Positions 1 through 28,781 of a stretch of DNA of 45,000 nucleotides are shown in pieces. The notes under the pieces were generated by a model. The model saw nothing but the letters and a program-made list of their open reading frames with translations, was not told the origin of the DNA and made no database searches. The position numbers were made by a program, and so were the translations under genes. The stretch is taken from assembly GCA_002104895.1 (NCBI GenBank), contig MCFG01000370.1, forward strand, positions 7,501 through 52,500. The letters are read 5' to 3'. The first letter of the stretch is position 1. Every line of letters starts with the position of its first letter. The stretch comes from Anaeromyces robustus. Taxonomy: Eukaryota > Neocallimastigomycota > Neocallimastigomycetes > Neocallimastigales > Neocallimastigaceae.

Positions 1-2363
1 TACATTAGCGTTACAATAATAGTTTTATATAAGTAAATTGTACAATACAAATATTAAGAATATTTTTATTGGAGGAGAAAGTAGATTTCCCCACGAATTT
101 ATAATCATTAAAAATATTATAATAATATATTATAATTATTCAGTCATAATATATTATCTTTATATTATTAATATAAATATTTATGATATAATTTTTAAGA
201 TGCTTATATAATACAATATAATAATTATATGAAATACTTTATTCTATTCTGTCTTTTTTTTTTCTCTTTTCTATTTTTATTTTATTTTTATATGATTTAA
301 TAAAAATAAATAAAATAAATAAAATAAATAAAATAAATCAATTAATAAATATAATTAAATATAAATAAATATAAATAAATATAATTAAATATAAATAAAT
401 TGAATTAAAAGGTATAAAAATAAATAATAAAAAAATGTGTTTTATATATTGATAAAAATTATTTTTATTTAATTATTTAATTATTTTGTTTTGTTGATTG
501 TTTGGTTTTTTGTTAATGGTTAAGTTTTACTTTTTACTTAAAACTATATGGTGAAGCTAAAAGAAATTTAATGTGATAAAGAAAATAATTATTTATTTTA
601 TTTATTTATTTATTATGTGAAATCTTATTTATTTTACGTGAAAAAATTTTATGTAAGCCATTTTATGCCAATGAGTGAAAAATTGAAAATTTTTTTTAAT
701 AATAAAAAATTGTGGAGTAATGATTAAAAAATTTTTTTGTAATTATTAATCATAATTATTTTTTTTAAATATATGATACTTTTTTTCTTTTTTAAGTTTC
801 TACTTTTTTTTTAATTTCTTTCCTTCTTATCTTTTATTTAAGTTCATTTTTTTTTTACTTTATTATTCATTTATTTGTTCATTATCATCTTTTTTTTATT
901 CTTTTTGTTTATTCCTTACCTTTTTATTGTTGTTGTTTTTTTCTTTTTTTGTTTGTTTTAGCGTCAATAATTAAATCTTTTTTTTTTTTTCTTTTTTTTT
1001 TTTTAATATATACTATTTTAAAAAAAGTTGATTCTATTTACCATATAATATATTAATTTATTATATTATATTATATTATATTATATTATATTATATTAAT
1101 ATTGTCTATTTCATATATTATTTTATATTTTATATTACAATACTATAAGAAAAAAAAATTAAATTTTTTTATCCTAAATAATACGAATTATATATTAATG
1201 CATATATAAATATATATTATAATATATTATAATATATTGTATATCTATAATATTAAATTTATTATTTATATGTATATATAAATAAATAAATAAATAAATA
1301 AATAAAAAAAAAAACAAATAAAAGTAAAAAGAATTCACCCTTTTTATAAAAAAAAATTTTTTTAGTTTCTCTTTAATTTCATTTTCATTTATCCATATAA
1401 TAAACCTAAATATCTTTTATTATTTTTTTTTTTTATAATTTATATATTTCATTTCATCTTTTTTTTTTTTTTTTTTGAAAAGAATATAATCAAAAATAAA
1501 AACATTTAAAAAAAAAAAAAAAAAAAAGAGAGAAAAAAAATAAACAAGAGAAATAAGAAATAATAAAATTTTATTGTATATTATTTAAGCAAATAGAATA
1601 ATAAAAAAAAAGGTAAAATATTTTTAGAAAAAATTAACAATTTGATGAGTATTTAGAAAATAAGGATAGGAAAAAAAATATAAAGTAAAAAAAAAAAAAA
1701 AAAAAAGAATAAAAAAGAAGAAAGAAAAGAAAAAAACAAACAAACTTATTTTAACAATTTTAGTTGTATTGATAAAATATTGTACAATAATAATAAAATG
1801 TAACAAAAAAAAAAAAAAAAAAGAAAGGAATTGAAAAGCAAGATTTATAAGCGTATATAAATAAAATGAGGAAAAACTGAAAAAAAAACTGAATTAATAT
1901 ATATACAAAGTAATTATACTTGAAGAGACATTATTAGAAAGAAAAAAAAAGTATTATAAGAGGAAAATTGAGGAAAAAGTATAATAAAAATAAATTAATG
2001 GTTTTGATAAATATAATCTATAATACATCTTAAAAAAAAGAAAAAAAATCAATTTTAAATAGTAATAATTATTTTGAAAATGTATCTAAATACTCGTATT
2101 GAAATAAATAAAATGTTTATTATAAACGTTTTAAATGATATTTTAATAAATAAAATAATTACAATATTTGTAATAATGATTACAATTATTTTTAATTGTT
2201 TTAATATTTATAAAAAAAATATAAATAAATATTAAATATTAATATTATAATATTTTTTTCAATTTATAAATATAAATATAAATGTATAATTAATATATAT
2301 TAATATTCTTTTATTTTTCTTCATATTTTTTATCTATAAAGTAATATCATATATAATTAGAAA
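1..2363. other. AT-only spacer upstream of the hydrogenase gene
   Basis: No coding region can be supported on either strand. The stretch holds poly-A and poly-T tracts, a TATAT-type microsatellite at about 1059-1098, AAAT repeats at about 300-345 and 1280-1305, and long A runs near 1510 and 1690. The promoter of the hydrogenase gene must lie at its right end, but in such AT-rich DNA a TATA element cannot be picked out. Confidence 0.7.
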
Positions 2364-4277
2364 ATGTCTATGTTATCATCAGTATTAAATAAGACAGCTT
2401 CAGCTGCTAACACTAAGATTACTCGTTCTTTAGCTACTGCTGCTGCTGAAAAGATGGTTAACATTACCATTAACGGACGTAAAATACAAGTTAAGCCAAA
2501 GACTACTGTTCTTGATGCTGCTAAAGCTAATGGTTTCTATATCCCAACTTTATGTTACCATCCAAGATTACCAATTGCTGGTAATTGTAGACTTTGTTTA
2601 GTTGATGTTAAGGGTTCATGGAAACCTTTAACTGCTTGTACTACTGAAGTTTGGGAAGGTATGGAAATTGAAACTGATAGTCCAGCTGTTATTGAAACTG
2701 TTAGATCCAGTTTAGCTATGATGCGTGAAGAACATCCAAATGATTGTATGACTTGTGAATCCAACGGTGATTGTGAATTCCAAGATTTAATTTACAGATA
2801 CCAAATTGATGCTCAACATCCAGTCAGATCTCTTCTTAGAAACAAATTCAAGAAGACTAACCACAGTATTACTGAACCATGTTACTCTCCATATGATAAT
2901 TCTACTTTCTCTATTGCTAGAGATATGAATAAATGTGTTAAGTGTGGTCGTTGTATTAGAGCTTGTCACCACTTCCAAAATATTAACATTTTAGGTTTTA
3001 TTAACCGTGCTGGTTACGAACGTGTTGGTACTCCAATGGATAGACCAATGAATTTCACTAAATGTGTTGAATGTGGTCAATGTTCTCAAGTTTGTCCAGT
3101 TGGTGCTATTGCTGAAAGAAATGAAGTTATTGAAGTCTTAAAACAATTAGATAGTAAGAGAAAGGTTGTTGTTGTTTCAACTGCCCCAGCTATTAGAGTT
3201 GCTCTTGCTGAAAACTTCAATGTTGAACCAGACTTTGATTTCACTCCAAAGATGGTTGCTGGTTTAAAGAAACTTGGTTTCGATTACGTTTTCGATACTA
3301 ACTTCTCTGCTGATCTTACCATTATGGAAGAAGGTACTGAATTAATTACTCGTTTAAATGAAGGTGGTAAATTCCCAATGTTCACTTCATGTTGTCCAGG
3401 TTGGATTAATATGGTTGAAAAGAGTTACCCAGAATTACGTGATAACCTTTCTTCCTGTAAATCACCACAACAAATGATTGGTGCTGTTATTAAGACTTAC
3501 TTTGCTAAGCAATTAAACTTAAACCCAGAAGATATTATTCACGTCAGTGTTATGCCATGTACTGCTAAGAAGGGTGAAGCTAAGCGTCCAGAATTTGTTC
3601 GTAAGGGTAGTGATGGTAAGGATGTTCCAGATATTGATTATGTTATTACTACTCGTGAATTATTAACTTTATTAAAACTTAAGAAGATTAATCCATCTGA
3701 ACTTAAGGATGCCAAATTCGATAGTCCATTAGGTATTGGTTCTTCTGCTGGTAACTTATTCGGTGTTACTGGTGGTGTCATGGAAGCTGCTGTTCGTACT
3801 GCTCAAATTATTACTGGTGTTGAAAACCCAATTCCATTAGGTGAATTAAAGGCTATTCGTGGTCTTGATGGTATAAAGGCTGCCAATGTTCCATTAAAGA
3901 CTAAGGATGGAAAGGATGTATCTGTTCGTGCTGCTGTTGTCAGTGGTGGAGCTAACATTCAAAAATTCTTAGAAAAGATTAAGAATAAGGAACTTGAATT
4001 TGACTTTGTTGAAATGATGATGTGCCCAGGTGGTTGTATTAATGGTGGTGGTCAACCAAAATCTGCTGATCCAAAGGTTGTTTTAAATAAAATGCAACGT
4101 ATGTACACTATGGATAATCAAGCTTCTCTTCGTTTATCCCATGAAAATCCTGAAATTAAGGAAATATATGAAAAATTCCTTCATGAACCAAATGGTCACC
4201 TTTCTCATGAATTATTACATACTCATTACAATGACCGTTCAAAGAAGATTCAAGATATGAGTCTCCACCAAAAGTAA
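2364..4277 (+). CDS. [FeFe]-hydrogenase, hydrogenosomal, 637 aa
   Basis: Reduces protons to H2 with electrons from low-potential carriers; in gut fungi this enzyme works in the hydrogenosome. Residues 1-30 form a Ser/Ala/Thr-rich, Arg-containing presequence (RSLATAAA at 21-28) of mitochondrial/hydrogenosomal type. A plant-ferredoxin-like [2Fe-2S] domain follows (C64, C75, C78, C92), then a His-ligated [4Fe-4S] site (H124, C128, C131, C137) and two ferredoxin-type [4Fe-4S] sites (C191/194/197/201 and C234/237/240/244). The H-cluster domain has all three signatures: TSCCPGW at 341-347, MPCTAKKGEAKRPE from 397 and MMCPGGCINGGGQP from 552, so C344, C399, C554 and C558 are the expected ligands and C343 the proton-relay Cys. 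The C-terminal small-subunit-like region is present. Length and domain order match the long multi-cluster hydrogenases known from Neocallimastix and Piromyces. There is no intron, unlike every other intact gene here, and coding bases are richer in G+C than the surroundings. An AATAAA lies about 30 bases after the stop. Confidence 0.98.
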   Translation: MSMLSSVLNKTASAANTKITRSLATAAAEKMVNITINGRKIQVKPKTTVLDAAKANGFYIPTLCYHPRLPIAGNCRLCLVDVKGSWKPLTACTTEVWEGMEIETDSPAVIETVRSSLAMMREEHPNDCMTCESNGDCEFQDLIYRYQIDAQHPVRSLLRNKFKKTNHSITEPCYSPYDNSTFSIARDMNKCVKCGRCIRACHHFQNINILGFINRAGYERVGTPMDRPMNFTKCVECGQCSQVCPVGAIAERNEVIEVLKQLDSKRKVVVVSTAPAIRVALAENFNVEPDFDFTPKMVAGLKKLGFDYVFDTNFSADLTIMEEGTELITRLNEGGKFPMFTSCCPGWINMVEKSYPELRDNLSSCKSPQQMIGAVIKTYFAKQLNLNPEDIIHVSVMPCTAKKGEAKRPEFVRKGSDGKDVPDIDYVITTRELLTLLKLKKINPSELKDAKFDSPLGIGSSAGNLFGVTGGVMEAAVRTAQIITGVENPIPLGELKAIRGLDGIKAANVPLKTKDGKDVSVRAAVVSGGANIQKFLEKIKNKELEFDFVEMMMCPGGCINGGGQPKSADPKVVLNKMQRMYTMDNQASLRLSHENPEIKEIYEKFLHEPNGHLSHELLHTHYNDRSKKIQDMSLHQK

Positions 4278-5669: not shown

Positions 5670-6279
5670 TGGGGGTGTACTTAAAGGGATGATTTGAAAA
5701 TCTTAGTATTTAATAAGGGATATATGTTATATGTTAATATGTTATATAAAAGTAGTGGTTCTAATAATGAAAAAAAAAAAAAAAAAAAAAAAAAAGTTTA
5801 GTATATGTAATATTGATATTTTTTGAAATTAAATATTATTTCATCTTGGTATTCAAAGAAAAAGGCTTTGATTTCCTTTTTAACTTATATTTTATCTTCT
5901 AAAGCTCGCGCTTATTTTTTCTTGATATGTTTCCCCGAAAAATTTCCAATTAATCGTGGCGTTCGACAAGGCTGTCCCCCTTTCACCAATTCCAATTCCT
6001 TTTTAATCTTTTTTTTTTCATTTTTAATGATATTTTAAATAAATAATTGTGAAAATCTCGATGTTAAAATTGGTAATAAACATTGCTGTGGTGGTTAATT
6101 TGATGATGATATCGTCCTTATAGCGCCTTCTGAAAAAAGAAAAAAGATTACAAAAAATTTTAAAAAGAGAGTTTTAAAATGGGCTTGATCTAAATGAAAT
6201 GTCTTTTGGTATTCAGAAATGTTCTACTATCGTTATCAAACTTTTGTCTTTTACGGAACCTCCTAACTATCTTGGAACT

Positions 6280-6288
6280 TACTTTTTA

Positions 6289-6292
<4 letters not shown>
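6280..6292. repeat. SINE target-site duplication, left copy
   Basis: TACTTTTTATCTT; its last two bases merge into the poly-T tail. It is identical to 6777-6789. In the LINE frame it lies just after the YLGTYF stretch, and coding-like sequence resumes after the right copy. Confidence 0.88.
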
Positions 6293-6359
<67 letters not shown>

Positions 6360-6776
6360 GACTTATCATGTGATTTTTCACATGAATGTATCGGAATTAA
6401 ATTCCCTGCCTTACCTTTTCGGCGTCGACGCCCTTGGTATATTCATATATTTTACATTTGTACTTAAACCCTAACGCTAACTTAATAACGGGTCCAGTCT
6501 ACAAGCCCCATATATGAATAGTAGTCACCAAGGAAACCGCCCAATAATTTAGAGCCGCACCCCACATTATTAGACTTAAAGATCTACTCATATACTTATA
6601 TTATTTAATGAGGCGTGAGTAGCTACGCCTCAAATACTATACCTGTGCACTACCTTGCTACAGTGTAAAACCCGTGAAGGAGAAAACCACTTTGCTTGGG
6701 GTAGATGCGGTGTCGATCCAGAAGCCTTATGTATGCTAAGGAAACGCCTTAACAACCAGGATAGAAACTGGTCGAC
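6291..6776 (-). mobile_element. tRNA-derived SINE inserted in the LINE
   Basis: The insertion has a 420-bp body (6357-6776) with a 66-nt poly-T on the plus strand (6291-6356), so it is an element on the minus strand ending in poly-A. Direct repeats TACTTTTTATCTT flank it exactly. Read on the minus strand from 6776, the head looks like a tRNA gene: a D-arm/A-box-like TGGTTGTTAAGGCG (6758-6745), a perfect 5-bp stem with a 7-base loop in the anticodon-arm position (CCTTA, GCATACA, TAAGG; 6741-6725), and GGATCGACACC (6719-6709), which differs from the Pol III B-box consensus GGTTCGANNCC at one base. A T-arm-like stem with 4 of 5 pairs surrounds that box. No acceptor-stem pairing is seen. The tail half is unrelated to tRNA and holds several strong hairpins. 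The source tRNA is unsure; the D-arm recalls Ser/Leu tRNAs. Confidence 0.82.
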
Positions 6777-6789
6777 TACTTTTTATCTT
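6777..6789. repeat. SINE target-site duplication, right copy
   Basis: TACTTTTTATCTT, directly after the tRNA-like 5' end of the SINE (GTCGAC on both strands at 6771-6776). An A-rich target on the element's own strand fits LINE-type target-primed integration. Confidence 0.88.
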
Positions 6790-7605
6790 AATATGTATAC
6801 AATTCCTTTTTCTAATAATTTATCTTTAAAACCTATTATTGATAAAATGTATAATTGTACAAAAAAAAAAAAAAAAAAATATATTCTCTTTCTAACTTTT
6901 TTTATGAACCTTAGTATTCCTTTAGCCTTTAAAAAAGAAGGTTTTACAATCTTACGTCATCAATAAACCTCTATACTATACTATACACCTCTTATTGGCT
7001 CTAATCAATCCAATACAAAGAAAAAATTCAAACGCTTATTAATACTGGTACTGGTATGTTTTGGTGTATCGACTCTTTCAATAGCAAAAAAAAAAAAAAA
7101 ATCATTACTTAAGAATATAGATGATATCTCCTTGGATAAAAAGTATAGCTATGTTCAAAACCCTACTATGAGTACTTTATGCTCTCAAGAGAGACCTTCA
7201 GATACCTCCTATCGCTGGAGTTTATGCTGTTAGACAGGTTAAGTGTTTCAAAAAAAAAAAAAAAAAATGGAAATTTTCACATTGTATTATTAAAGACCTT
7301 GTTTTACACTATAAAAGAATTAATAGATTTTCTTCTTGAGCGGTTAAATCTAGTGCATTAGTGGAAAGATTCAAAAATGAGTTGGTTAGTGAATACAAGA
7401 GAAATTAAAAATTGGTATTGGAATGATCTGCGGCTCTATTGAAATAAATGATTATTATACTTGTGTTTGTCTGTAAAAGATTATATATATATATATACAT
7501 ATATATTGTTTAAATATAATATAATTTAAGACCAACCTCTCCAAGAAAGGAACGTTAATACTGATAACACAGTAGGACAGCCTAGTAGGGCAAATGCCGA
7601 TTGAT

Positions 7606-7647
7606 CAAGTTATTATCGAAAAAAAATTGATTTCCCATAATAACTTG
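7606..7647 (+). repeat. 3'-terminal hairpin of the LINE
   Basis: A perfect 11-bp inverted repeat: CAAGTTATTAT at 7606-7616 and ATAATAACTTG at 7637-7647, with a 20-base loop. It sits directly before the 16-base A tail (7648-7663). Its place suggests the 3' end structure recognised by the element's reverse transcriptase, as known for several LINE families; this role is inferred. Confidence 0.7.
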
Positions 7648-7694
7648 AAAAAAAAAAAAAAAATTCATTTTTTTTTTTAAAATTTTACACAAGG

Positions 7695-8000
7695 TGGGGG
7701 TGTATTTAAAGGGATTTGAAAATTTTAGTGTTTAAATTTTGGTAATAATACCTTGCTTTCAATGGTTTATTTACTAATGATATATAAAAATGATATACAA
7801 ATTATGTGCTTAAAAAAAAAATGTGTTACCATATTTTTTTTTTTTTTTTATGAAGAGTATTGAAATGGACTTGATGATCGATCTTGATGAAATTTCTTTT
7901 TATGTGAACTCAAATATTTCATTAGGTTAATAAAATAAAAAAAAAGATTTTTTACAATCTTACATCTATTTAGTAAACCTCTATACTATTATATTTTTAT
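7695..8000 (+). mobile_element. Second, internally deleted relic of the same LINE
   Basis: Three blocks of the upstream LINE recur here in the same order and strand, with shorter spacing. Block 1, starting TGGGGGTGTA, is at 7695-7734 (matching 5670-5712). Block 2, the ATGG(A/G)CTTGAT region, is at about 7852-7920 (matching 6165-6222). Block 3, ending TAAACCTCTATACTAT, is at about 7941-7990 (matching 6931-6980). The RT core, the SINE and the C-terminal region are absent. The right end is uncertain. Confidence 0.65.
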
Positions 8001-9121: not shown

Positions 9122-10389
9122 TTAATCACATACTGAAAATGGATGGAAATTTTCTGTATTATTATTATTATTATTATTATTTTTATTTGTTTTATTACCA
9201 TGTTCTGGTATATCATTTAAATCACATTCAAGTGAACTGGATGAATTATGTTCTGAATTTATTAAAGAATCATTTTTTATTACAACAATATCATTCTTTT
9301 TATTTTTATTAAAATCTATATTAAAAAGTTTATGATTACTCTTTTTCTTTTTTAGTTTAAAATTTTCATCTTCTGTGAAAAATGAATTTGTTATTACTTT
9401 TGGTCCATCTTCTTCTGTATCATCTTCTTCATTATTTATAGAATCTTCTGTTTTTTCTTCTTCTTTCATTATTGGTATATTTCCATTATTTCCATTATTT
9501 CCATTAGGAGAATTAGTTAAATCTTGATTAATGGTATAATAATCTCCTTTATAACCTAAAGGTTTTTGAGCTTTTAATAGATTTCCTTCTGTTTGTTCTA
9601 TTTCATCTTCAACATTTAATATTTCTAAATCATCATTAATTATAACTTTATTATTTCTTTTTTTTTTCTTAGATGATTTATTACTATTATTATCATTTTC
9701 TTCTTTTTTTTCATTATCTTTATCTTTTTTATTATTATTATTATTATCAACTTTTATAATAATAAAATCAACATTATTATCAATTTGTATACTACTAGTC
9801 GATTTTTCAAATAATTTATTATTCATTTCTAATGTTTTTGGTGATAGTGAATCCATCTTTGAAGGATTATTATTATTATTATTATTATTATTAATATTAT
9901 TATTATTATTATTGTTATTATTATTATCAAAGAATGAAGAATTTTTTGAATTTATCATGGTATTTGTAGGATTTGATTCTTCATTTTTTGAGGATGTATT
10001 ATTAATAATTTCGATAGAATTTGAATTAATATTATCCATATTGGTTGTATTAGTTGTATTAGTTGTATTATTATTATTATTATTACTATTATTGTCTTTT
10101 TTCGAATTATTATTTTTATTATCGGTATTATTAATACTGTTAGTATTTAAAGTTTCAATTTCTGTTGTTGTAACTTTTTTATTATTATTATTATTATTGG
10201 TGTTATTATTTTTATTATTTTCGTTAGTATCTTAAAAATAAAAATAAAAATAATATATATAAATATATATAAATATATATGTATTAATTAAAAAATTTAA
10301 AAATAGATAAAAAGAAAAAGAAAAAAAAAAGGTAATTGTTAGTTGTTAAGTTAAATAATAATATACTTTAAAAATATATTATATATTAT

Positions 10390-10439
<50 letters not shown>

Positions 10440-10503
10440 GTATTAATTTAATATATATATATGTATATAAAATATAATTACTCTTTGATGCACCGCATCC
10501 CAT
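9122..10503 (-). CDS. Predicted N-acylated MGCGASK-family protein A, Asn-rich, 376 aa
   Basis: Two exons, 10503-10482 (22 nt) and 10230-9122, joined across a 251-nt intron (GTAATT donor, TAAG acceptor); the join keeps frame to a TAA stop. The protein begins MGCGASKNTNENNK. Gly2 followed by Cys3 and a Ser at position 6 is the classic dual signal for N-myristoylation and palmitoylation, so I infer anchoring to a cytoplasmic membrane face. The rest is low complexity: Asn runs, Lys/Glu-rich charged stretches (KKKKRNN near the middle), an acidic part, and a C-terminus ending FHPFSVCD. No catalytic domain, signal peptide or membrane segment is seen. A less repetitive stretch, LLKAQKPLGYKGDYYTI, might be a conserved core. 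It is the last of three tandem paralogs sharing exon 1 and intron phase. A start at the internal ATG 10039 would lose the family signature. Function is unknown. Confidence 0.8.
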
Positions 10504-11685
10504 TTTTATCTGTGTTCATTCTATAGATTTATTTTATTTTATTTTATTTTATTATTTTTTTTTTATTTGTAAATATTTTATATTATTTATTATCGAGAAT
10601 AAATAATATTAAACAATATATAAAATATTTTTTAAAAATATTTTAATCACTTTTAATAATGTATCTTTTTTTTTTTTTTATATATATATAAAATATTATT
10701 ATTTTAATAATGTGCCTTCTCTCTCTCTTTTTTTTTATTTATTTATTTATTTTATATGATTAAATTCAATAGCTTTTTATTATTAATATCTTATAGTTTA
10801 AAATGTATATTTTATTATTATTTTATTTATATTACTTTTCTATTTTTATTTTTATTTTTTTTATTTTTTTATTTTTTTATTTTTTTATTTTTTTATTTTT
10901 TTTTTTTTAAAAAAAATATTATTAAATAAAAAAACAATTTAAAAAATCAATAAACATTTTTTTTTATTTTATAATTTGTTATTAAATTATTATTATAATA
11001 AAAATTTTAAAATAAAAACTTTTTTAAGAGTTTATTTATTAAATCAATTCTTAATAAACTATAAAATTATTAAAAATTATAAAAAAAAAAAAAATAAAAA
11101 ATAAAAATAAAATAAATATATAATAAATATAAAATAAAATAAAATAAATATAAAAGAAAATAAATGTAAAAATAAATAAATAAATATTAGTAAATTCATA
11201 ATTAATAAATAAATTAATAATAAATAAATATATATACATATATAATTAAGTAAATATTAATAAATAAATATGAAAAATTAAAACATTAGAAAAAAAAAAA
11301 AAAGAGAATTATAAATGATAAAACAATGTATCTCAATTATTTATTTATTTAATAATATAGATACTTTTTATTTTATTTTTTTTTATAATTTTATTAATAC
11401 ATTTATACAAATTATGGTTATAGATGATTCTAAATATTTTAAATATGATAATAATATTATATTTCTATGAGGAAGTATTATTGTTATAATATTTTTATGA
11501 TTATATTAATTATGATTATTAATTATGATTATTATTATGAGATTATGAGTATGATTATAATCTAATTATTTATGATTTTTAATTATGATTATGATTATGC
11601 TTATGATTATGCGTATGATTATGTTTATGATTTATTGATTATTGATGATTTATGTTATAAAAATTCTAATTTAATTATTAAAAAA
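10504..11685. other. Spacer between MGCGASK genes A and B
   Basis: Nothing coding is supported. It contains TTTTA/TTTTTTA repeats at about 10840-10905, AAAT/AATA repeats at about 11090-11270, and ATTATGATT-type repeats at about 11505-11650. The promoter of gene A and the 3' end of gene B fall in it. Confidence 0.6.
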
Positions 11686-12574
11686 TTATTTATGATGTCC
11701 TCCTGGTCTTTGTGGTGGATGAACACCTGGTCTTGGTGGTCCACCAATTAAACCAGAATGTCCCATTGGTTTTTGATATGAATAATTCATTTTATTAAAA
11801 TCAGAATTCATATTATCAATATCAGCATAATCAATTTTATTGTAATCTATACCATTACCACCCATTGGTGGTTTTTTACCTGGTTTTCCATTTGGTTTAT
11901 TATTAAATCCTTCCTCATTATTTCCATTTCTATTTCCATTTCCATTTCCATCTCCATCTCCATCTCCATTTCCATTTCCATTTTCATTACTACCATTATT
12001 ATCTGTTGAAGAATTTATTCCATTTCCATCACTACCATCTCCTCCTCCTGAAGAAGAATTACCATTTCCATTACCATTATTATTACCATTTTCATTATTA
12101 TTTGAATTTTCTGTAGTAGAAACTACATTACCGTTAGAATTATCATTTGAAGTAGATTCTACGGTTGTTTCTTCCGTATCTTATATATATTATATTATAT
12201 TTATTAATTTCAATTTTTTTTTTGTAATATATTAAGGAATGAATGATAAATATATATAAAAGGTAAATTTTTTTTTTTATTTAAAAAAAAAAATTATATT
12301 TTAAATATAACATAAAAAATAAGTTATATAAATAATATTTTTTTTTCTATTTTAAATAATATATAAATTATTTTCTTCGAATTTTTATTTTATTTTTTTT
12401 TTAAATAATACAATATATTAATTATTATTATAATAATTATAATTATAATTTTATTTTATTTTTATTTTATTTTTATTTCACTCTTAATTATTTTTTTTTA
12501 TCTATTTTTTTTTTTTTTTTTTTTTATAAAGAAGAAAACCATAAATTTTTACTTTTCGAAGCTCCACAACCCAT
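11686..12574 (-). CDS. Predicted N-acylated MGCGASK-family protein B, Gly/Asn-rich, 171 aa
   Basis: Exon 1 is 12574-12553 (22 nt) and exon 2 is 12179-11686, with a 373-nt intron (GTAAAA donor, TAAG acceptor). It was missed as a single open frame because the start lies in the tiny exon. The protein starts MGCGASKNTEETTVESTS, with the same Gly2/Cys3 acylation signal and the same phase-1 junction as its neighbours. The middle (about 20-110) is Gly/Asn/Asp/Ser-rich with NGNGNGDGDGDG repeats. Next comes a Pro/Lys patch (KPNGKPGKKPP), a Tyr/Asp/Asn stretch (IDYNKIDYADIDNM) and a Pro/Gly/His-rich end (GGPPRPGVHPP, then RPGGHHK). No known domain is recognised. It probably works as a lipid-anchored disordered tether or adaptor, which is inference only. 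Confidence 0.78.
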
Positions 12575-12922
12575 TTTTAAATTTTTTTTTTTTTTAAAAA
12601 AAATAATGAAATATTTAGAATATTTCTTTTTTAATACCTTTATTTTTTTATTTTTTTTATTTAAGAAACTGTTAATATAAAATTTTAATCCTTTTTTTTT
12701 TACGGTAATAGTAATAAATTAATTCTATAAAAAAAAAAAAAACCAAAAAAAAACAAAAAATAAACTTTTTAAAAATTAAACTTTAAAAATATTATTAAAA
12801 AGAATTATAAATAATATTATTTTTTGGTATTTTATGAAAATGTATAATAATAATAATAATGATAATAATCATACATAATAATAATCATACATAATAATAA
12901 TCATACATAATAATAATCATAC

Positions 12923-12978
<56 letters not shown>

Positions 12979-13038
12979 CATACATAATAATAATCATACA
13001 TAATAATAATCTACATAATAATCTACATAATAATCTAC

Positions 13039-13095
<57 letters not shown>

Positions 13096-13916
13096 TATGT
13101 GTCACTCATATTGCTCACATTGGATTAATATAAAAGCATGTAATATGTAATATATAATAATTTTTTAATATTTGTAACTTTCTACCACAAAATATATTAA
13201 TAAAATTAACCATAATTATTAAAACTAAATCAATAACTATTTAATATATAATATTAATATTTAAATATTATTACATTAAAAAAAAAAAAAGTATTGTTAT
13301 TACTATTTTACACATTATTATTGTATTAAAAAAAACTAATATTTTATTCAGTAATGAACAAATATAGATTATTTTTTTTTATTTTATTTTATTTAATATA
13401 TTTTATTTTTTATTTTTTTTTTAATTCTATTTTTTTTTATATTCTTGTTAATATTATAAAATAATGAATAATAATGAAAAAAAAAAATGAGCAAAAATGA
13501 GCAAAAATAAACGAAAAATAATTAAAATGAAAATATATTTAAATGATTGAAAATTGCTATTGCTTTTTTTTTAATAATTTATATTTTGAATTGAATTGAA
13601 TTGAATTATAAAATTGATGAAATATTTAACTTTTATATAAAAGCCTTTTTTTTTTTTGTAATAATTATCTAAAAAATGCTTGCATTATGATAATTTTTTT
13701 TTAGTTAATCATAGGATTAAATTATTATCTATATTTTTTTTCCATTTGCTTTTCTTTTTTTTTTTTATATTTTAAAGGTGTATTAGAGAAATGATACTAT
13801 TTATTTTATTTTTTAAATGTCAATTAAGTTTTTTTTTTTTTTTTTAATTCTTTTTATTTTTGAATGTCAATTAAGTTTATTTTTTTTTGTAATTCTTTTT
13901 AATTTTTTTTTATATT
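12575..13916. other. Spacer between MGCGASK genes B and C with AAT arrays
   Basis: No gene is supported. The main content is the CATACATAATAATAAT/(AAT)n satellite described separately; the rest is AT-rich with homopolymers. Gene B's promoter should be near the left end, just upstream of 12574. Confidence 0.6.
12850..13094. repeat. Compound satellite: CATACATAATAATAAT units and (AAT)n
   Basis: About four tandem copies of a 16-base unit, CATACATAATAATAAT, at about 12869-12935 grade into a pure AAT run. Two more units follow, then three CTACATAATAAT variants and a second pure AAT run to 13094. The layout suggests one unit amplified and then eroded into triplets. It lies 0.3 to 0.5 kb upstream of gene B's start. 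Confidence 0.85.
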
Positions 13917-14706
13917 TTATTCAGCTGGAGCAGGTTCTTCTTCAGCTGGAGGAGCGGATTCTTCTGCAGCTGGGGCAGATTCTTCTGCAGGTGGAGCAGG
14001 TTCTTCAGCTGGAGGAGCAGGTTGTTCTTCAGCTGGTGGAGGTGGAGCATCATCCTCTTTTGGTGGTGGTGGATGGGGATGATCTTCACCTTCACCTTTA
14101 CCTTCACCTCCTTCTAATGGTGGTGGAGGATGCATATCATCATGTGGTGGTGGAGGATGTGGATGATCAGGTTTTTCTCCATCAGCTGGTGGAGCACTTG
14201 GTTTTGGCATTTTATCTTTATCCCCTTTTGGTGAAGGAGGTCTTTTATTATCATCTTTTTCTTTCTTTTTATCTTTATCTTTACCTTTAGGAGGTGATTT
14301 TTTTCCTATTTTACCATTAGGCAATTCTGCATTAAATTTAAAATCTCTTGTTTTACCTTCCTCGGTTGAAGCTACTGTATTATCAGTATCTAATTATTTT
14401 CAATTTTTCATTATATTCCATTTAATTCATATATTTCATTAATTTCAAAAAAAAAAGAGATTTTTTTTTTATCCATTCATATTGTAATTTATTATAGTTA
14501 ATGTTCATTATATACAACAAAAATATTTTTGTTTTAATTAATTATAATTTTTATATTCAAAAAAAAAAACAATAAAAAAAAAATAAAACAAAATAATAAT
14601 CAATATATATATTTCATAAAAGAAAACATATTATGTCTTTAAGAAAAAAAAAATTTTTTTTAAAAAAATTATATATATAATTACTTTTTGATGCACCACA
14701 ACCCAT
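13917..14706 (-). CDS. Predicted N-acylated MGCGASK-family protein C, Pro/Glu-rich, 164 aa
   Basis: Exon 1 is 14706-14685 (22 nt) and exon 2 is 14389-13917, separated by a 295-nt intron (GTAATT donor, TTAG acceptor). The protein starts MGCGASKNTDNTVASTEEG; the Gly2/Cys3 myristoylation-palmitoylation signal is identical to the two downstream paralogs, and the next residues match protein B best (NT-x-x-T-V-x-ST). A short ordered-looking part, RDFKFNAELPNGKIG, leads to a Lys/Asp-rich stretch (about 45-70). The second half is strongly repetitive: runs of PPPP with His and Asp, then repeated PAEE units to the end. The Pro-rich runs could bind SH3, WW or profilin-type partners at a membrane, which is inferred from composition only. 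No enzyme motif is present. It is the first of three head-to-tail genes spaced about 2.1 kb apart. Confidence 0.82.
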
Positions 14707-17454: not shown

Positions 17455-18287
17455 ATGAATTTACAAAAACAAAATAGAATGGGAAATCCGTTACATCAGA
17501 ATACGTTTCCATTTGGTAAAAATACGTCTTCTGTAACAATTTCCCAATTAGTACCTAAAATGAGAATATCTCGTTTAGAAGTTATTGTTTTAGAAAAAGG
17601 TAATTTTTTTTTTTTAATTTAATTTTATTTTATCTTTATTAAACTTTCTTTTTTATCATTATATTTTATTATTTGTAAATCATTAAATTGATGTGTATTA
17701 ATATATGTATATAAATAAATAATGTTTTTATTTTTTTTTTCTAATGTTATTAATTTTTTTTTTTTATTTTTATTTTTATTTTTATTTCTATATATATATA
17801 TTATCAACTATAATAAAGATGAGGATTATGTAATTAGTAAATTAAAGACTCCAATTTATTCATTATATGTTGCTGATAAGACAGCAAGTGTAGTAATGGC
17901 CTATTTTGGTGATAGTGCTAGAAATATTAATATTGGTGATGTTTTACGTTTAGAAAATGTGTAAGTAAAAAAAAAATATTATTATAATATTATTAAAAAT
18001 TATATATATATATTATAAAATCATTATTAATAATAAATATTTAATTATTAATATATTTCTAAAATGTAAATATAAATATATATATATATTATATATAATA
18101 TTTTACTTTCTAAAAACAAATATTAAAAAAAAAATTCAATATTTAAAGAACAACTAAGTTATATTGGAATTATTTACAATTAATTGTATTAGAAAACAGT
18201 AAAGTTAGAAGACTTGGAGAGTAAATATTATTAAAATTATTATATAACTAATTTTACATTTTGAAATTTCATTTAAATGAATTATAT

Positions 18288-18318
<31 letters not shown>

Positions 18319-18443
18319 ATTAATAAAATATTTTTATTTATATTTATTAGAGATATGATGGTATTTTCAGAAGTACCAAATATGAGTCATATGGAATGGG
18401 TACCTGATGAATCAGGGAATTCAGAAAGTTTGGTAAATATCTT

Positions 18444-18478
<35 letters not shown>

Positions 18479-19364
18479 TAATTGACTATTATATAGTCAA
18501 GATTAAACTATTGTAAAATTATATAATACTATATTTTATTAATATTATATTTCTAATTTCTTATTCTAAAAAATATTATATATATATATATATGTATAAA
18601 TTTTATTATAAATATTATAATTATTATGATAATAATAATTATTATTATATATATAAATTTTATAAATAATAATAATAATAATAATAATAATAAAGAAACC
18701 AAGACCAAGTGAAATACCAATAAAGCATTGGATGCCACCACAAATGGCAAAAGCACAAGAAAATGCTCGTAGTATTACAAGTAAATATAAAATAAGACCC
18801 CATCGAGATTTTGATAAACCTATGGATAGAGATAATTTAAGATCATCATCACAACTTTCTTATTTCCCTAATTATGTTGATCGACCAGATCAACGTCAAA
18901 TGAATAATATTCAACAACCTTTAATACCAGGAAGACCACAAGTAAATTATAGTGAATTTTCCAATAATCGAAATGATCATATGATGATGATGAATAATCG
19001 AAATCGATATGATATGAATGATATGAGAAATTATCGTACCAATAATAATAATAATAATAATCTTAATAATGATTTAATGAATAATAATAATGGTATGTTA
19101 AATAAACGTCAAAAATTAAATAATAATCCACTTAATGGAGGTATGGGTAATAATGGTATAGGTAATATGAATGGTAATCGTTTAGGCCTACCTAATATGT
19201 ATGGAAATCTATCTATGAATAATAATAATAATAACAATAATAATAATAATAATGGTAATAACAACGGTAATAATAACAATAATAATAATGGTAATAATAA
19301 TGTGAATGATTCCAATAATGAAGGTTATAATTCACCACCACCATTAGGACCACCATTAATTTAA
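17455..19364 (+). CDS. SOSS-B/NABP-like OB-fold single-stranded DNA-binding protein, 369 aa
   Basis: Five exons: 17455-17599, 17819-17960, 18149-18220, 18351-18432 and 18696-19364. Every junction keeps frame. Residues about 29-132 match the SOSS-B (NABP1/NABP2, hSSB1/2) OB fold: ISQLVPKMR and VIVLEK for the first strands, YVADKTASV (65-73) against the family's VADKTGSI, IGDVLRL (87-93), and a GEDMMVFSEVPNMS end (119-132) matching GEFCMVYSEVPNFS in the human protein. In animals this protein binds single-stranded DNA and serves in double-strand break repair within the SOSS complex; the same role here is inferred. Residues about 148-369 are a tail rich in Asn, Met, Arg and Pro with long Asn runs, ending in PPPLGPPLI, and probably disordered. 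Family members also carry a disordered tail, but not an Asn-rich one. The ATG at 17455 is the first in frame; residues 1-28 are not conserved. Confidence 0.88.
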
Positions 19365-26867: not shown

Positions 26868-28781
26868 TTAATCTACTAAGGTACTATCACTTTTTATATC
26901 ACATTCTTCTGATGATAATGAATGTAATTCTAATTTTTTAATAAGTTCTTCATTTAATGTAGTTGATGTAAGTTCATTTTCATCCTCTTCTGATTTTATT
27001 AATTCTATTTCTTTTTCATTTTCTATTGGGGTTAAAATTTCAACTGAAATATTATCCATTTCTGTTTCATCTTCTTCATCTTCTATATGATGATTTTTAT
27101 ATATATGATTTTTTTTTATACTATTATGATTATTACTATTATTATTAGTAGCGTTAGTATTAGTAGTATTAGTATTATTATTATTATTTTCAATTTCTTC
27201 TTTTGAAATAATTTCTACTTTATCTATTTTCTTTATTTCATTTTCATTTTCATTTTCTTCTTTTATTTTTATTTGTCTATGTTTGGGTATTTGTTTATCT
27301 TCTTCGGATAAATCATCAAACCATGGATGATTAATAACTTCATCAATATTTGGTCTCTTTTTAAAATCACGATTTAACATACGACACATTAAATCATGAG
27401 AACCAGAAGATACAATAACTGGAAATTGTACTTCACTAGTTATAATTTGATCTAAAGTACGGAATGGATTACTACCATAGATCATAGTATATAAAAGAAT
27501 ACCTAAAGACCAAATATCTTGTGGTGGTCCATCATATTTTTGACCTGAAAGTACTTCTGGTGCAGCATAGCCACCTGTACCACAGAATTTATCGAATTTT
27601 TTACCTTCTTTTACATAAGCACTTGAACCAAAATCAATAATTTCTACGGTATCATCATCAGTACGTATAAGAATATTTTCATCTTTTATATCACGATGAA
27701 CAATATTTATATGATGAAGATGTTGTACACCTTGTACAATACGGTAAAATATTTTCTTTACTTGAGCTTCTGTTGTAAAACGTCTATTATCAATACATTC
27801 AAATAAATCTATGACATTTTGGGATTCAAATTCTAAATAATAATAATAATTATCTTCCCAAGTATTTAAAAGTCTCAATACATATGGATGTGGGAAATTT
27901 TCTGTTATATATTTTAAAATATGTATTTCTGTTGGAATCTTAACACCATCTTCACGAGTCCAGCATCCGTCTAAAACTAAAGATTTAACAACGTATTTTA
28001 TTATAACTTTCTTACCATCTGATTTTCTTTTAGCTAATTTTACGAAACCACAGGAACCTTTGCCTATGGTATCTAAAATTTGGTAATCACTTATTGATAT
28101 TTTTTCTATTATATATATATATCATTTAAAAAAAAAGGTTTTTTTTTTTTTATAATTTAATTTTTAAAATGGTTTTTTTTTTAATGTTATGAAATTTAAA
28201 ATATAATGATAAATATAATATATATAATATAAATAAAAATAATAATATAAAAAAAGTTTATTAATATATTATTATTCAAATAGTTATTTAATATATATTT
28301 TATATTTTTATATTATAAATAAATTTAACATTTTTTTTTTTTAATCTTTTATTCTTAATAAATTTGATGACATTTTTTTTTTAATATTCTATTTTTTTTT
28401 TCATTATTATTTTTATTATTTATATATTATTATGTTTTTCTTTTCAAGTTATTATTTATATTATTATTTTATATTCTTTTATAGATATATATCTATGGGT
28501 ATGTATAATAAAAAAAATGAAAAAAAAAAAAATTATAATATATAATATATATATTTACTTTCTGGCATAGCCATTTTAGCTTTAGGAGGTGAATTACTCA
28601 TATAATTATTTAATAAAGTATTCTTCAACATATTGGAATTATCTTTTTGGAATTTTGATATTTTATTATATAAAAGTGGAATAGTATGTTGTATAGATTG
28701 AAAAGATTGCCAATTAGGATTTATATGTTTATTTGACGATGATAATAAATACGTTGAATTTGTGTTAGATACTTTAGACAT
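26868..28781 (-). CDS. Ser/Thr protein kinase, PAS-kinase-type catalytic domain, 486 aa
   Basis: Exon 1 is 28781-28559 and exon 2 is 28105-26868, with a 453-nt intron (GTAAAT donor, ATAG acceptor). The joined frame has 487 codons. Kinase domain about 80-337: Gly loop GKGSCGFV (89-96), ATP lysine K111, HRDIKDEN with D213, DFG at 232-234, CGTGGYAAPE ending at 258, and a DIWSLGILLY helix. The stretch DGCWTREDGVKIPTEIHIL, the FECID...F insert and GKKFDKFCGT are characteristic of PAS kinase (PASK/Psk), which couples nutrient state to sugar and glycogen metabolism in yeast and animals. The 74 residues before the domain are Ser/Asn-rich and show no PAS fold, so the sensor is missing or was never there. 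Residues about 338-486 are acidic, Glu/Asn-rich and probably disordered. All catalytic residues are present, so it should be active. Confidence 0.93.

Follow-up and report, generated by a model that had tools for sequence, protein, structure and literature searches.

Three tandem genes and their shared start exon

The stretch of DNA considered here, hereafter the window, comprises 45,000 nucleotides (nt) of the gut fungus Anaeromyces robustus (Neocallimastigomycota), namely positions 7,501 to 52,500 of contig MCFG01000370.1 in the AT-rich, 70-Mb assembly GCA_002104895.1, which consists of 769 contigs. Three genes, designated A, B and C, lie head to tail on the minus strand within 5.6 kb of the window, and each begins with a 22-nt exon for the peptide MGCGASK and one further base; a phase-1 intron then leads to a second exon that encodes the tail of the protein. 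This arrangement had been proposed in a preliminary description of the same DNA, and the junctions and joined frames bear it out. As a whole, the trio has the look of an ordinary gene family, though one not yet described; neither the family nor the string "MGCGASK" was found in the open-licence literature searched. The features are as follows, in window coordinates.

14706-13917, minus strand: gene A, joined frame of 164 amino acids, stop at 13917
14685..14706, minus strand: gene A exon 1, 22 nt, MGCGASK plus one base
14390..14684, minus strand: gene A phase-1 intron, 295 nt, GTAA...TAG, 10.5% guanine-cytosine (GC)
13917..14389, minus strand: gene A exon 2, Pro/Glu/Lys-rich tail, 43% GC
14262..14321, minus strand: most basic 20-residue patch of gene A, residues 31-50 (PNGKIGKK...), net charge +7, possibly shared with gene B
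12574-11686, minus strand: gene B, joined frame of 171 amino acids, stop at 11686
12553..12574, minus strand: gene B exon 1, 22 nt, MGCGASK plus one base
12180..12552, minus strand: gene B phase-1 intron, 373 nt, GTAA...AAG
11686..12179, minus strand: gene B exon 2, Asn/Gly-rich tail
11851..11910, minus strand: most basic 20-residue patch of gene B, residues 98-117 (contains PNGKPGKKPP), net charge +4
10503-9122, minus strand: gene C, joined frame of 376 amino acids, stop at 9122
10482..10503, minus strand: gene C exon 1, 22 nt, MGCGASK plus one base
10231..10481, minus strand: gene C phase-1 intron, 251 nt, GTAA...AAG
9122..10230, minus strand: gene C exon 2, rich in Asn at first, with conserved motifs further on
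9122..9811, minus strand: gene C residues 148-376 plus stop, with the conserved linear motifs FEKSTSSIQIDNNVDF, EQTEGNLLKAQKPLGYKGDYY, ITNSFFTEDE and HPFSV

The splicing of exon 1 to exon 2 is well determined by sequence in all three genes, because no earlier acceptor keeps the frame, in-frame ATG codons come late, unspliced reading soon terminates and GC content jumps between intron and exon. The junctions are alike, with a GTAA donor, an AG/ATAC acceptor, phase 1 and an exon 2 that supplies Asn8 and Thr9, and the acceptor used in each model is the most upstream AG that leaves the frame open to its stop. If exon 1 is left aside, no in-frame ATG occurs before codon 68 in A, 113 in B and 72 in C, and reading on without splicing meets a stop after 30, 16 and 50 residues, respectively. 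GC content rises from 10.5% in the intron to 43.1% in exon 2 of A, from 6.7 to 32% in B and from 6.4 to 18.5% in C. Since later AGs within 60 nt would also keep the frame (four in A, three in B and one in C), the exact junction is still a prediction.

Copies of exon 1 differ at three positions between A and B, three between A and C and six between B and C, of six degenerate third positions, and, as had been described, all of these changes are synonymous. The absence of nonsynonymous differences, against three to six synonymous ones, indicates that the duplications would not be recent and supports amino-acid constraint on the anchor peptide. The earlier proposal that selection keeps the anchor exon is thereby upheld, as it is by the recurrence of MGCGASK in relatives of gene C (see below).

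The occurrence of the split exon is also more than chance would give. Within the window, the exon-plus-donor pattern with up to three mismatches matches three times, as against zero in 100 shuffles. Genome-wide, four places encode an uninterrupted MGCGASK (Ser as TCN), namely the trio and one further locus, L001, and the pattern MGCxxSK (Ser again as TCN) in a 22-nt exon followed by a GTA donor occurs at three sites in the assembly, all in the trio, and at none in the control. With the build unchanged and the motif relaxed to MGxxx[S/T]K, nine matches are obtained genome-wide versus none in the reversed control; the six outside the trio all lie within longer open frames, which have the frame of the match in three cases and a different one in the other three. 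L020 was rejected as a further 22-nt anchor exon: although it could formally be connected to a 285-residue frame, an open frame runs through it in another phase. The loose-pattern match L019 falls within what we take to be a phosphatase-inhibitor-3-like gene. A still looser MGC pattern without a donor gives 17 matches versus 4 in the control, 13 of them besides the trio and L001. The locus L001 itself (1501-1995 of G000:C272) encodes a different protein that starts with MGCGASKVSNQ in an Asn/Ser-rich frame of 164 codons and has neither a 22-nt exon nor an intron after codon 7; open stretches further downstream look like later exons. The MGCGASK peptide can therefore also arise separately.

All residues of a dual acylation signal are present in MGCGASK, including Gly2, Cys3, a small residue at position 6 and Lys7; Cys3 is available for palmitate, and Lys7 has a role in the signal. 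The same kind of N-terminal signal is found in G-alpha subunits, which have MGC N-termini and undergo dual acylation. A Pfam scan of A, B and four C relatives (C itself left out) detected no G-alpha domain; it gave no family above threshold and, up to E 1, a single sub-threshold phage-family match in the relative P0004 (E 0.15). As regards an origin of the exon from G-alpha, an MGC start was not seen in 5 of 12 G-alpha loci fetched, whose first exons may lie outside the fetched sequence. The N-terminus of the trio also fits the myristoylation consensus MGxxxS/T, as stated in one source (PMC6478813). Genes for N-myristoyltransferase and DHHC acyltransferases are encoded in the genome, and the products of A, B and C are presumably doubly acylated and located at a membrane.

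Tails of genes A, B and C

Relatives were sought with residues 200-376 of gene C, and seven were found (E 1.9e-50 to 2.3e-28 in the region search) that are alignable through the tail, comprising proteins from Piromyces sp. E2 (P0001) and Piromyces finnis (P0006) and five others. Four of the seven (P0003, P0004, P0006 and P0007) start with MGCGASK and continue directly with N or D and the tail; the anchor is thus already joined to the tail in these sequences, which supports the predicted junction of gene C. The frames of P0003, P0004 and P0007 are uninterrupted on contigs of 1242-1315 bases, from which we infer that these represent transcripts or intronless copies. The two Piromyces proteins among these relatives over the tail, PIROE2DRAFT_4179 of Piromyces sp. 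E2 and BCR36DRAFT_406122 of P. finnis, are named hypothetical or uncharacterised; the latter, like C, starts with MGCGASKN, whereas the former, unlike C, is without the anchor in the sequence as given. Judged by these alignments, gene C is a conserved member of a gut-fungal family, in four relatives of which the anchor and the motif-bearing tail stand together.

Conservation within this family is concentrated in the distal part of the tail. The alignment of C with its relatives contains invariant motif columns from residue 138 on, and mean identity to C per 20-residue block, computed over columns with at least four relatives, ranges from 0.24 to 0.32 across residues 21-140 and from 0.34 to 0.81 from residue 141 on. 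A low-confidence structure model of exon 2 reaches a mean predicted local distance difference test (pLDDT) score of 43.7 and shows no fold, with one 3-residue helix only; residues 151-160 of exon 2 average a pLDDT of 76. The tail of gene C is thus predicted to be disordered yet conserved in linear motifs. Because these motifs persist across relatives, it is not a freely changing cargo.

Gene C appears to be single in its genome. Searched against the whole assembly at E <= 10, it matches itself and three weak sites (E 0.008-0.69), and with the relative P0007 as query the C locus is recovered at E 5e-40, the one other match among the best candidates scored standing at E 0.33; among such candidates, no close second copy was seen. 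A viral collection held no confirmed relative of C, and sequences of solved structures gave no credible match (best E 0.13).

Searches with the other two genes were negative. For gene A, none of 3227 candidate homologues reached E <= 0.1. For gene B, with its Asn/Gly repeat masked, four candidates were obtained and none reached E <= 10, a weak search because masking left few search words. In whole-genome searches, neither A (at E <= 0.001) nor B (at E <= 10) matched any site but its own. The conserved motifs of the C tail do not appear in alignments with A or B, which contain weak low-complexity similarity only.

Some weak resemblance among the tails can be measured. Under standard gap costs, the local similarity from residue 10 onwards is reached by 12 (A/B), 9 (A/C) and 5 (B/C) of 1000 shuffles, scores that low complexity can inflate. 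The similarity from residue 21 onwards is reached by 15, 2 and 0 of 500 shuffles; with the tail of L001 from residue 21 as a control, 302 (A), 72 (B) and 65 (C) of 500 shuffles do so. A and B have one basic stretch in common, PNGKxGKKxPP, which lies inside the most basic 20-residue stretch of both. Their best ungapped 12-mer has 8 identities; among 2000 shuffles of each kind, this number is attained 5 times when A is shuffled fully, 31 times when A is shuffled by blocks and 13 times when both are shuffled by blocks. The shared patch is suggestive. The most basic 20-mers carry net charges of +7 (A), +4 (B) and +7 (C) within proteins whose overall charges are -14, -8 and -13, respectively.

The preliminary description had held that the tails diverge completely. 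Their compositions do differ, but the statement stands only in part, as the C tail has been kept across species and a weak basic patch is common to A and B. According to published work (PMC11878562), the number of low-complexity regions per genome is highest in Neocallimastigomycota, where these regions favour C-terminal positions and contain much asparagine. As such Asn-rich C-terminal regions are common in the phylum, divergent tails are not in themselves surprising.

Origin of the trio

It seems probable that the trio arose by old tandem duplication within a gut-fungal family of doubly acylated, disordered peripheral membrane proteins, in which C is the conserved member and A and B are fast-diverging paralogues. 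Duplication is favoured by the presence of three same-strand tandem copies, with no further one found in the pattern searches of the assembly, and by the identical phase and identical residues 8-9 across the junctions of A, B and C. According to this reading, N-myristoyltransferase would acylate Gly2 and a DHHC enzyme would palmitoylate Cys3, placing the protein on the membrane face with a flexible tail. The C tail would serve as a flexible scaffold of short linear motifs, while the tail of A, and weakly that of B, might act as a charged brush in which a basic patch binds lipid. A and B would descend from a common ancestor with C, their tails having diverged by repeat expansion under weaker constraint as the anchor remained under purifying selection.

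Several results weigh against this reading. Comparisons of intron, upstream and downstream DNA between the copies fall within shuffles in eight of nine cases, and the A-B upstream comparison alone exceeds all 100 shuffles, as one of nine tests. With no convincing similarity in introns or flanks, the case for common descent is carried by exon 1, the intron phase, residues 8-9, the tandem arrangement and weak signals in the tails. These tail signals vary with the scoring, as tail scores over three gap settings are reached by 3-14 (A/B), 3-53 (A/C) and 2-29 (B/C) of 1000 shuffles, and the A/B patch, when measured by BLOSUM score, is reached in 70, 124 and 58 of 2000 for the same three kinds of shuffle. 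Moreover, three of the seven relatives of C begin at a later Met in the given sequence and are without the anchor, and residue 9 in the four anchor-bearing relatives is V, E, V and V rather than Thr. Thr9 is thus shared by A, B and C but not by these relatives, a difference that may point to a duplication in this lineage or be fortuitous.

An alternative would be exon capture, whereby an ancestral promoter, exon 1 and its donor were duplicated and joined to unrelated frames, leaving homology in exon 1 only. The different compositions of the tails and the lack of detectable similarity between introns, and mostly between flanks, agree with such a history. However, residue 9 and most of codon 8, common to all three genes, lie in exon 2, and few shuffles reach the tail similarity from residue 10, which makes capture unlikely.

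The preliminary description had suggested that the locus may act as a generator of membrane-tethered proteins, with the anchor exon kept and the disordered cargo changing. The protein-level identity of the anchor across the trio, the differing tail compositions and the failure to find relatives of A and B would fit this idea. It is, however, not supported: the C tail is conserved across seven relatives, only three copies were found in 70 Mb, no further 22-nt anchor exon was seen among the six other pattern matches and nothing points to turnover. We regard the idea as quite improbable, even if the tails of A and B, which have no detected relatives, may have diverged freely.

Even less can be said for convergence, in which each gene would have gained MGCGASK independently as a sequence preferred by N-myristoyltransferase and acyltransferases. 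L001, as a different gene of the same genome with this start and without a 22-nt exon, lends the idea some plausibility, but all three genes have the 22-nt exon, the phase, residues 8-9, the strand and the tandem placement in common, a combination not found elsewhere, and convergence is very improbable. Finally, a gene-model artefact, in which the tails would be chance open frames in AT-rich repeats to which exon 1 is not spliced, could draw on their low-complexity composition and on a Piromyces sp. E2 model (P0001) that starts inside the tail, but is scarcely credible given the higher GC content of exon 2 (18.5-43.1%, as against 6.4-10.5% for the introns), the conserved motifs of C and, for gene C, the joined anchor and tail in four of seven relatives.

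In build, the trio appears to resemble MARCKS and BASP1, with no homology seen in the Pfam scan described above. In gene A, the resemblance would lie in an acidic Pro/Glu chain of net charge -14 and a basic patch of +7 in 20 residues; the patches of A and B presumably lack the Phe-rich effector domain of MARCKS. In the literature on this class (PMC6478813), the primary structures of MARCKS, BASP1 and GAP-43 are described as unrelated, acylation and a cationic domain being common to all, together with an N-terminal acyl anchor (MGxxxS/T for MARCKS) and an unusual acidic composition. It is possible, if rather doubtful, that gut fungi independently evolved a comparable set of doubly acylated, acidic and disordered proteins with a basic switch patch and a separable anchor exon and tail, comprising a core member C with conserved signalling motifs and lineage-specific members A and B with repeat-expanding tails.

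Neighbouring genes and biological meaning

The surroundings of the trio are mixed. A long ATA/ATT trinucleotide array with diverged units lies between A and B (12844-13095). Just downstream of gene C, interrupted pieces of a reverse-transcriptase-like frame occupy 5900-8000, which we take to be a decayed relic of a long interspersed nuclear element (LINE)-type reverse transcriptase (NRGVRQGCP frame at ~5952). On the plus strand, an [FeFe]-hydrogenase gene with Fe_hyd_lg_C, Fe_hyd_SSU and ferredoxin domains is found at 2361-4277, and an intron-split gene at 17456-19364, presumably related to the single-stranded DNA-binding SOSS-B-like proteins, ends in a long Asn-rich C-terminal exon with no Pfam match. 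The hydrogenase gene and the Piromyces relatives of gene C are what one would expect of an anaerobic gut fungus. At 26868-28121, the minus strand encodes a protein kinase (Pkinase, E 6.3e-62) that ends in a low-complexity Asn/Glu tail, and the segment 36001-38000 shows a strong GC skew (0.455 for each of its 1-kb steps) and is devoid of open frames of 90 amino acids or more.

For the biology of gut fungi, gene C represents an undescribed conserved protein with a likely membrane anchor and testable motifs. A start exon of 22 nt may be missed in annotation, as is suggested by Piromyces sp. E2, where the model of a C relative starts downstream of it. Should the MARCKS-like reading be true, the trio would exemplify convergence towards disordered regulators tethered to membranes in fungi.

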